The translations under genes and the position numbers were made by a program. Below are positions 619-3,601 of a stretch of DNA of 23,219 bases, one piece after another. The DNA is from a virus: positions 1 through 23,219 of IMG/VR virus record IMGVR_UViG_3300048549_000787; one strand, written 5' to 3'. Within the stretch, counting starts at the first letter, position 1. Every line of letters starts with the position of its first letter. Under the pieces are notes generated by a model that saw only the letters and a list, made by a program, of their open reading frames with translations, was not told the DNA's origin and searched no databases.

Positions 619-676
619 GTTTTTCTCCTTGTAAGTTGCCACTTTTCTGTTTCGAGGCAAGTGGCCAGCCCAGAGA

Positions 677-718
677 CTATGCTGCTAAGCGCATCTCAGG
701 TGCAAAATTATCGTTTGC
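677..718 (-). other. tmRNA tag reading frame, ANDNFAPEMRLAA
   Basis: Starting at the resume codon GCA (718-716), 13 sense codons read ANDNFAPEMRLAA and end at TAG (679-677). The preceding AGTAAAT and the GCAAACGAT start match the usual context of tmRNA resume codons, and the Leu-Ala-Ala end is the classic ClpXP degron. The ANDNFA beginning resembles alphaproteobacterial tags such as that of Caulobacter (recalled from general knowledge, not searched). With the non-templated alanine from the charged tmRNA, the attached peptide would be 14 residues. Confidence 0.85.
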
Positions 719-765
719 ATTTACTTTTCGAAGACTAAAACACCAGTCGATCCTATTTCGCCCCC

Positions 766-874
766 ATCATAAAGAGTCTCGCGTGATATATTGAGTAGTT
801 ATTGATGCAAATATATTCTACACATCTTTGTCTAAACTGCCACAATAATACTTCATCCATTATAAGACTCCTTA
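766..874 (-). other. Intervening segment of the permuted tmRNA precursor
   Basis: This 109-nt stretch lies between the encoded CCA end of the acceptor piece and the first G of the coding piece. Its two ends extend the acceptor stem: CCATAAGGAGTCT on the acceptor side pairs with AGACTCTTTATG-AT-GG on the coding side, with only a G-U pair and a small bulge. This gives one long precursor hairpin that processing enzymes would open. The middle is AT-rich. It contains a 35-codon ATG frame preceded by AAGGAG, but the frame runs into the mature RNA and is probably fortuitous. Confidence 0.75.
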
Positions 875-941
875 TGGTGGAGGCGGTGGGTACTGCCCCC
901 ACGTCCTGTATGCCCTCCGACATCTTCTATTTTATTTATAT

Positions 942-970
942 ATTATATCATACTTTAACGTCTTTGTAAA
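942..970 (-). promoter_or_regulatory. Sigma70-like promoter for tmRNA and oxygenase-like gene
   Basis: On the minus strand, TTTACA (970-965) is separated by exactly 17 nt from TATAAT (947-942), preceded by TGA as an extended -10. Initiation is expected near 935, a few bases upstream of the predicted tmRNA acceptor piece. It belongs to a family of near-identical promoters in this window. Confidence 0.82.
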
Positions 971-1840: not shown

Positions 1841-2111
1841 GAGCGTAATGTAGGACCTTCATAAGATCTTTTCTAGCATCGTTATCTGTACCCTTCTTAC
1901 CATATCGTTGAGCATACTTCAACACATTACCAATACAAAAGCCTGTTCCATGGCCACCGTCAATAATAAACTCGGTTGCCTGAAAATTGTTTCTAGAATA
2001 ATGTTGTTGATATGTTGAGTCAATATATTCCTGAAACTCTTCAATCAATTCGCGCTCATTAAACTTATAATGAGGAACTTCAAGTTCCTCTGTATCATAA
2101 TTATAAATCAT
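1806..2111 (-). CDS. DUF3310-like small protein
   Basis: A 101-aa protein. Its C-terminal half (about residues 55-96) reads GNVLKYAQRYGKKG, then Asp/Arg/Lys-rich DLMKVLHYAL, matching the pattern of the phage DUF3310 (SaV-like) family: G-N-x-x-K-Y-x-x-R-x-x-K-K-G followed by a D-L-x-K-x-x-x-Y helix. Members are common in phages, often beside nucleotide-metabolism genes, and their role is unsettled. The start overlaps the halogenase stop as ATGA, so it is the last gene of the halogenase unit. Its 3' end converges on the rightward cassette with a 35-bp overlap and no visible terminator. Confidence 0.72.
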   Translation of the reverse strand: MIYNYDTEELEVPHYKFNERELIEEFQEYIDSTYQQHYSRNNFQATEFIIDGGHGTGFCIGNVLKYAQRYGKKGTDNDARKDLMKVLHYALIQLHVHDTSQ

Positions 2112-3601
2112 TCCAACTCCTGAAATATATTAAACCCATTATTTGCTAACTCTATAGCATCTCTATGTTTCGGTGATAGAGGTTTGAACAATTCATCTCT
2201 CCTCCACAGTGAGAACATAAAATCAATCGCACTTTGCCTATCTATATGTGGCAACATTACATTCGCTTCATATCCCATTTGAATCAAATACAATGCCCAA
2301 TTAGGTTCTGTAAATAATTTCTGATTATTTGGTCTTGCTCGTACTGTAAATCTAGGATCTTTTAACCATTCGATATAGTCAAGCATTCTATCCGATTTCA
2401 CATGCGTTTCTTTTACATAACCCCAAAAACCATATTTTGTTTCATCGTTTCTTTCAGTATCAGCATAGTGTAAATTAATAAAGTCTACACAATCTTCATA
2501 CCAACTTGTCATCATATGATTGTAATAATCTACATCTTCTTTATGATATGTAAACCTATTTGCAAATGCTTCAACAGCAAGTAACACACCTCTTGTAGCA
2601 GACTCAATACCTGTACTCTCGAGCGGTTCTACGAATCCACCAGCGAGTCCAATCGATATTACATTATTCTCCCAAAAGTTTTTGATGTAATACGGTTCCC
2701 AGTGTATCATTCGCAAATCATCAGGATTTACTCTACCTTTCCAATGTTCAGCGAAAGATTTACACGCATCATCAATAGAAGTTAAATGCCTGTTGAATAC
2801 AAGACCAGAACCATATCTCGTTTGAGTGGGAACTTCCCATATCCATCCGTGTTCCACAGCAGGGCATCTTGTATATGGTGTAATTTCATCATCCGATTCA
2901 AAAGGAACTTGACAAGCAACTGCGGCATTTGTAAATAATCTACCATTACCGCAAAGGTCTACACCATCCTGTTCTTTAAGGACAGAAGCAAATCCAGTAC
3001 AATCAAAATAAAAATCCGATTCATGATTGCTTCCATCTTCTAAGTCGAGTGATTCAACGAAACCTTCTTCATTCCGGTTTACTTTTACAACACCTTGCTT
3101 TATAAGTTGAACTCTATTACAACTTTTTTGTAACCACTGTACAAGTTTACCGCAGTCTAATTGAAAGGCAACTGACTTTGATTTAATATCTTGTAGAGGA
3201 AGTCGATTCTCTTGTATGTGACCCCAACTAACCAGACCATATTGTTTGAAATCATTATCTTGAAAATTGGATATCCACAAATCTTGTAGTGATGCTTCAG
3301 GTAAATCTAGATTCTGAAGAAATGGGTGCCATATTGTATGACCCTCTTTTTTCCAGTTGGGGAAAAGAATACCTGCTTTGAATGTCGCTTCAACTTCAGA
3401 AAACCAATCTGTATGCTGTAGTCCACATGCTTGCATGTAATTATCAAAGGACATAACTGTTGCTTCACCGAACCCAATAGGTTCGCCAGCATTTTTGTCT
3501 ATAACTGTAACAGGTATATTATAATTTGTGTCAAAGAACTTTGCCGCAAGCCATCCAGAAGTTCCACCACCAACGATTGTAATGCTTGTAATTTTTTTCA
3601 T
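2108..3601 (-). CDS. Flavin-dependent tryptophan-halogenase-like protein
   Basis: A 497-aa full-length member of the flavin-dependent halogenase family, which uses FADH2, O2 and halide to make HOCl or HOBr and halogenate aromatic substrates. Visible motifs: FAD-binding GGGTSGW at 11-17; GFGEATV at 43-49; F-K75-A-G corresponding to the catalytic lysine of PrnA-type enzymes; G-W-I-W-E-V-P at 252-258, the W-x-W-x-I-P signature that suppresses mono-oxygenation; and EPLESTGI with Glu328 at the position of the catalytic glutamate. All key residues are retained, so it is probably active. The substrate is unknown (free Trp, a peptide or another aromatic). It has its own promoter just upstream. Related genes occur in marine T4-like phages. 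Confidence 0.9.
   Translation of the reverse strand: MKKITSITIVGGGTSGWLAAKFFDTNYNIPVTVIDKNAGEPIGFGEATVMSFDNYMQACGLQHTDWFSEVEATFKAGILFPNWKKEGHTIWHPFLQNLDLPEASLQDLWISNFQDNDFKQYGLVSWGHIQENRLPLQDIKSKSVAFQLDCGKLVQWLQKSCNRVQLIKQGVVKVNRNEEGFVESLDLEDGSNHESDFYFDCTGFASVLKEQDGVDLCGNGRLFTNAAVACQVPFESDDEITPYTRCPAVEHGWIWEVPTQTRYGSGLVFNRHLTSIDDACKSFAEHWKGRVNPDDLRMIHWEPYYIKNFWENNVISIGLAGGFVEPLESTGIESATRGVLLAVEAFANRFTYHKEDVDYYNHMMTSWYEDCVDFINLHYADTERNDETKYGFWGYVKETHVKSDRMLDYIEWLKDPRFTVRARPNNQKLFTEPNWALYLIQMGYEANVMLPHIDRQSAIDFMFSLWRRDELFKPLSPKHRDAIELANNGFNIFQELE

Follow-up and report, generated by a model that had tools for sequence, protein, structure and literature searches.

A phage two-piece tmRNA whose spacer appears to double as a gene slot

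The tmRNA locus and its genomic setting

The window, by which we mean the whole stretch of DNA analysed, is an incomplete virus contig of 23,219 bases that carries on its minus strand the two pieces of a permuted tmRNA, two putative promoters, a short nested open reading frame (ORF) and, downstream, an MsmA-like oxygenase gene (Table 1). Rfam cmscan at gathering thresholds gave minus-strand matches to RF04321 (tmRNA_permuted; 927-677, 78 bits, E 1.1e-13, cut-off 47) and to RF01849 (alpha_tmRNA; 974-634, 73.4 bits, E 1.7e-18, cut-off 50), both models being passed with a margin, and the acceptor piece is encoded first and the coding piece second, as expected of a permuted gene. ARAGORN called no tmRNA in the window. 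An initial annotation had proposed a phage-encoded permuted tmRNA of alphaproteobacterial type, naming no strand, and had recommended a covariance-model search; the two matches bear the proposal out and place the gene on the minus strand.

The acceptor stem is paired at 7/7 positions and includes the G3-U70 pair (AlaRS identity) together with CCA, and the tag frame has its resume codon, hydrophobic -AA end and stop; the fully complementary stem, T-arm, CCA, D-loop and tag frame described in the initial annotation are thus all intact. Relatives likewise retain the acceptor pairing and the tag frame, the loss of which had been named in advance as evidence against a tmRNA. The predicted precursor fold (-59.4 kcal/mol, z -5.98) was equalled by none of 200 shuffles. 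A 4-kb contig, L123, also has a copy of the tmRNA, and the protein encoded downstream of it is 100% identical to that of the window.

Table 1. Features of the tmRNA region in the window
Feature	Position	Strand	Basis
MsmA-like oxygenase gene, downstream of tmRNA, cut by contig end	1..618	-	67% identical to phage HMO-2011 protein
Coding piece: 5' acceptor strand, D-loop, tag frame, 3' hairpin	638..765	-	cmscan and element coordinates
3' hairpin GCCACTT...AAGTGGC	638..665	-	RF01849 match ends at 634
Tag reading frame ANDNFAPEMRLAA-stop	677..718	-	resume codon GCA at 718; stop ends at 677
D-loop GGATCGAC	746..753	-	element coordinates
Nested ORF, family A, MDEVLLWQFRQRCVEYICINNYSIYHARLFMMGAK-stop, 35 codons	753..860	-	homologues nested and free-standing, pN/pS 0.21, AlphaFold
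5' acceptor strand GGGGGCG	759..765	-	G1 at 765
Intervening segment (109 nt), putative cargo slot	766..874	-	between CCA (875) and G1 (765)
Extended precursor helix, 3' arm AGACTCTTTATGAT	766..779	-	pairing, covariation, precursor fold
Extended precursor helix, 5' arm (A73-CCA and 10 slot nt)	865..878	-	13/14 pairs; covaries across phages
Shine-Dalgarno AAGGAG of nested ORF	868..873	-	within predicted slot-closing helix
3' acceptor strand CGCCUCC (885-879), A73 (878), encoded CCA (877-875)	875..885	-	7/7 pairs with 765-759
T-arm of acceptor (first-encoded) piece, GTGGG GGCAGTA CCCAC, loop GGCAGTA	886..902	-	cmscan and element coordinates
T4-type late promoter TATAAATA	933..940	-	also in relatives
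Sigma-70-like promoter TTTACA-17-TATAAT, extended -10 TG	942..970	-	11/12 consensus matches

The window also encodes a T4-type replication module, recognised by PHROG, which comprises a gp43-type polymerase, a DnaB-like helicase, UvsX, clamp loader subunits and a RegA-type repressor. Among phage records the polymerase of phage C48C1 (Kyanoviridae) comes closest, at 53% identity; the window belongs to a marine T4-like phage. Related stretches of the MsmA-like oxygenase gene are common in IMG/VR (at least 596). Inspected by eye, the N-terminal part of this protein is without the usual Rieske CxH...CxxH ligands and has instead the stretches ...NPGIKSVAGN... and CEVKHG. A gene of the tryptophan-halogenase family lies at 2108-3601, also on the minus strand (Pfam E 6.8e-90).

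Promoters

The suggestion of the initial annotation that the tmRNA has its own promoter is supported by the sigma-70-like element and, in addition, by the T4-type late promoter, from which a transcript would be predicted to start at about 927, where the RF04321 match begins. An exact copy of the late motif precedes the T-arm by 37-54 nt in 72 of 96 phage tmRNAs and is present in 16 of 17 relatives that adjoin an msmA-like gene; among 70 bacterial tmRNAs it was seen once, at 111 nt, and it was seen in 2% of shuffles. TTGAC is found upstream in 60/96 phage copies. The frequency of the late promoter in phage copies makes late transcription likely for most of them, possibly with early transcription as well. 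A search of the window region for a riboswitch at E<=1 gave none.

The nested reading frame

The intervening segment contains AAGGAG, a 7-base gap and then the ATG that opens the nested frame. The initial annotation had overlooked both this ORF and the behaviour of the segment as a slot. The frame runs 13 nt into the coding piece, where its final codons and its stop (755-753) are situated. A search for homologues, here called family A, gave 72 related loci. At 48 of these the acceptor CCA end of a tmRNA is immediately upstream, so that the ORF is nested, and the other 24 lie elsewhere in phage contigs without an adjacent tmRNA, some of them between other genes, for example right behind the clamp loader gene. 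The window ORF shares with the family the homology of the ICINNYS core and a reading frame under selection. For 20 distinct nested coding sequences pN/pS was 0.21 (a set that excludes misaligned MDDY-type sequences, the value being 0.44 with these mixed in) and for the free-standing copies it was 0.23, as against 1.26 and 1.06 in control frames; the differences are distributed over the three codon positions as 783/606/1818, the third position being dominant. AlphaFold, given the family A alignment, modelled a two-helix hairpin (residues 3-20 and 24-31; mean pLDDT 87 for a peptide of just 35 residues), which lends weak support to a real protein. Family A had no Pfam match and weak PHROG matches (best E 0.046), and the collection of phage records gave no match to a free-standing homologue. 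The free-standing homologues, the selection at codon level and the modelled hairpin together argue that the nested ORF is a gene, and that family A is a genuine conserved protein family as read from its coding sequences. Its function can be guessed at as that of a small late accessory protein that binds a phage or host partner.

The Shine-Dalgarno (SD) sequence of the window ORF is fully paired in the predicted fold of the precursor as well as in that of the released spacer, so that translation may be weak or may need unfolding. In other family A members the SD, as read from the sequences, is placed just outside the closing helix.

Contents and exchange of the spacer across phages

Phage permuted tmRNAs are common in IMG/VR, where a single exact 20-base tmRNA motif, blind to the spacer, picked at least 119 loci, 7 of which remained unparsed, mostly through shifted T-arms or incomplete contigs. 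Spacer lengths in this motif-selected sample are bimodal, 43 being no longer than 38 nt and 68 lying in the range 57-266 nt; one further spacer of 499 nt is possibly misparsed. In bacteria the spacers are short, with a median of 29 nt, and no SD-led ORF was found in the two long bacterial spacers of the sample. Among 65 distinct occupied phage spacers (60-300 nt), 27 contain an SD-led ORF that is 25 aa or longer and covers at least 55% of the spacer, compared with a mean of 2.7 and a maximum of 7 in 200 shuffles and with 2 on the reverse strand. The remaining 38 do not, a few of them having ORFs with a weak SD and others resembling structured RNA, which shows that not every slot is coding.

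The ORFs fall into several families. At least 60 loci carry family B (MKNPLVKK...WSICAD...), probably a small membrane protein, as a nested ORF, and at least 5 have it free-standing; its pN/pS is 0.30. Three more were grouped by eye: family C, which ends in KYLG and includes the spacer ORF of phage Melnitz; family D (VKGHI...RLWxNEExYI), also free-standing in L369; and family E, in L023 and L102. Pfam and PHROGs searches with ten cargo proteins gave nothing except, for the slot of L080, a match to a DUF2061-like membrane protein just under the cut-off (E 1.8e-4). A batch run of ARAGORN on 135 spacers found no tRNA, and the spacer of L117 run alone gave a defective tRNA-like call only. The spacers without an ORF, mostly 65-100 nt, resemble compact structured RNAs (L117, L122, L454, L009, L012, L014, L055, L056 and L120), and some have T-arm-like hairpins, such as GGTTCGAAACC in roseophages DSS3_MAL1 and MD18.

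Spacers and the tmRNA parts around them differ in their degree of relatedness. L148 and L161 have coding pieces that are 99% identical, whereas the spacer is of 109 nt with family A in the former and of 29 nt and empty in the latter; in L131, L128 and L130 the coding pieces are 100% identical and the spacers measure 30, 110 and 74 nt, respectively. Conversely, the spacers of L148 and the window (L001) are 98% identical while their acceptor pieces are only 62% and their coding pieces 72% identical. On the tmRNA tree the empty or occupied state requires 24 changes, and families A and B require 6 each. The spacer thus behaves, on these sequence comparisons, as a modular and exchangeable slot that is either empty or filled with unrelated ORFs across related phages, and its contents would be swapped by recombination in the conserved tmRNA flanks.

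The slot is closed by an extension of the acceptor stem. The initial annotation had put this at about 13 further base pairs, which is close to what is found, with 13 of 14 positions paired in the window. At extension positions 6-14 pairing is seen in 82-95% of 88 distinct phage copies, most positions using several pair types, and in 37-65% of 43 bacterial copies; position 2 (C74) is nearly always a C-A mismatch.

Origin of the phage tmRNA and its tag

In a tree built from the tRNA-like and neighbouring regions, one branch, with support of 95/96 and presence in 98% of bootstrap trees, divided the 100 phage copies from the 63 bacterial ones; the alignment had 151 columns only, the phage sample was selected by motif and the bacterial sample was not directed at marine clades. 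The nesting among bacterial copies expected of a host-captured ssrA was not seen. This arrangement on two sides of one branch reads better as a phage tmRNA lineage than as repeated recent capture, and the claim of the initial annotation that the copy had been taken from a host is, for a recent event, not supported. Its description of the T-loop GGCAGTA as unusual was also rejected, this loop being an ordinary one found in 63/117 phage and 22/73 bacterial copies.

Both in the motif-selected sample and among close relatives, in which similar tags are found too, the window tag is the most frequent one. Across 84,980 bacterial and archaeal species its first nine residues, ANDNFAPEM, matched no more than 3 contig stretches, which belong to 2 bacterial MAGs. 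One of the two MAG copies (L280, Hyphomonadaceae) has the full phage tag, an acceptor GGGGCCG and a long branch in the tree; the other (L281, Alphaproteobacteria) has ANDNFAPEMRL up to the contig end and the same acceptor. At seven phage loci (L002, L020, L021, L049, L093, L094 and L112) a search for an ANDN-type tag found none, the tag being absent or different, and at four (L064, L098, L114 and L085) the apparent tags are very long, at 29-31 residues (for example ANDNALSNVTFVDFSAPVTAVNEDFALAA), and may be real or misread frames.

Proposed function and alternative explanations

We consider the window RNA to be a functional phage form of the alphaproteobacterial two-piece tmRNA in which the normally discarded spacer would double as a gene slot, a reading to which we give a probability of roughly 0.8. 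In bacterial two-piece tmRNAs standard processing yields two paired pieces that act with SmpB and AlaRS, and the spacer of split tmRNA genes is usually seen as waste removed during maturation. In the window, the fold of a transcript with its start near 927-935 would bring the tRNA-like halves together through the 7-bp acceptor stem and 13 further pairs. Host tRNA-processing enzymes would then free the spacer, with RNase P acting at G765 and 3' trimming at CCA875. The two pieces would receive alanine from host AlaRS, bind host SmpB and rescue stalled ribosomes, adding ANDNFAPEMRLAA as a ClpXP-type tag, probably at a late stage of infection. Translation of the 35-residue protein might use either the unprocessed transcript or the spacer once released. 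Full-length untagged protein would come only from the uncleaved precursor, because the stop lies in the coding piece and cleavage leaves the spacer without one; the cleaved spacer of the window would be a non-stop message which the tmRNA itself could rescue. A stop at +11 to +13 of the coding piece is found in 8/28 slot ORFs, the window included, and in 19/28 the stop precedes G1, so the non-stop logic is not general; these 19 would be translatable from the released spacer too.

That the locus is an ordinary phage permuted tmRNA whose spacer frame is a functionless product of chance would fit with Rfam matches that the tmRNA alone explains, with the occluded SD and with the many phage spacers that lack an ORF. 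We regard it as highly improbable, since it is already contradicted by the family A homologues outside tmRNAs and by selection at codon level (pN/pS 0.21 against about 1.1-1.3 in other frames), and SD-led ORFs are moreover ten-fold more frequent than in shuffles. Recent capture of a host gene could account for the alphaproteobacterial type of the window tmRNA and for the sharing of its tag, or the beginning of it, with two bacterial MAGs; with one branch separating phage from bacterial copies, and with tags, helix and late promoter that are phage-specific, such capture appears improbable.

The placement of the nested gene is a more balanced question. The gene may be real and translated and yet owe its position to genome packing, the spacer being a tolerated insertion site with processing and translation unlinked. 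This view, which we judge a little better than an even bet, is favoured by the way in which unrelated ORFs, empty spacers and non-coding inserts share one place, and by the occurrence of family A between other genes, and is opposed by the retention of the extended helix in phages whatever the cargo and by the eight slot ORFs with the same stop place in the coding piece, although the latter may simply follow from the TAG in GAAATAG. Alternatively, the spacer ORF could be a built-in non-stop message that becomes a substrate of the tmRNA once RNase P has cleaved, so that the peptide and tmRNA activity would be linked by feedback in the manner of ArfA. The stop at +11 to +13 in family A and some other slot ORFs agrees with this idea, which we nevertheless think unlikely in view of the 19/28 that stop before G1. 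Returning to the gene slot itself, its widest form would be that in marine T4-like phages the slot is a general exchangeable cargo site, bounded by a dedicated helix and in many cases a late promoter, which delivers small phage proteins coupled to tmRNA maturation, with the coupling built into the window through removal of the cargo stop codon by RNase P cleavage; this we offer as a tentative proposal.

Relation to known systems

Phage permuted tmRNAs as such are already known, with 53 two-piece structures among phage genomes, 50 of them from aquatic phages, given in the available text of one report (PMC9004378), and the window copy is another member. The same text, which covers phage Melnitz, describes a glutamine riboswitch and an early promoter and makes no mention there of a nested gene (PMC9004378). 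The window tmRNA resembles that of Melnitz, as described in it, in being permuted, of alphaproteobacterial type and in a T4-like marine phage, and differs in the T4-type late promoter and in having no detected riboswitch (PMC9004378). With alphaproteobacterial ssrA (RF01849, Caulobacter type) it shares gene order, acceptor, T-loop, resume codon and the ANDN- start of the tag, whereas the bacterial spacers are short, are without an SD-led ORF in our sample and have a weak extended helix. The nested message, if cleaved, would be like the ArfA non-stop message in lacking a stop and being open to tmRNA rescue, as far as the available text on ArfA describes it (PMC10107115); unlike that message it belongs to the tmRNA transcript itself, and the likeness claims no sequence relation. 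Group I introns and inteins similarly carry a protein gene inside a segment removed from the mature product; here, in contrast, there is no splicing, the tmRNA remains in two pieces, and the tiny cargo does not count as a recognised endonuclease.

We found no relevant description of spacer ORFs or nested genes in tmRNA in the open-access literature, so priority is not proven. The spacer seems to have been given a second use as a gene slot with varied contents, which would make the tmRNA a vehicle for small phage proteins, and the slot cargo provides a collection of small phage protein families, most of them unrecognised. The comparisons also suggest that tmRNA in phages often acts late and belongs to a separate evolutionary lineage, as opposed to being a stray host gene, and they offer a testable link between ribosome rescue and nested gene expression. 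In Melnitz (L121, MZ577097) the spacer, which follows CCA and is 142 nt long, contains an SD-led ORF (MFKWLSKTRLVVITRDYFRERNRKADAKIPKYLSG..., MFKWLSK...KYLSG...) that is unannotated in the record; as Melnitz is an isolated phage with a candidate filled slot, the idea can be tested in culture.
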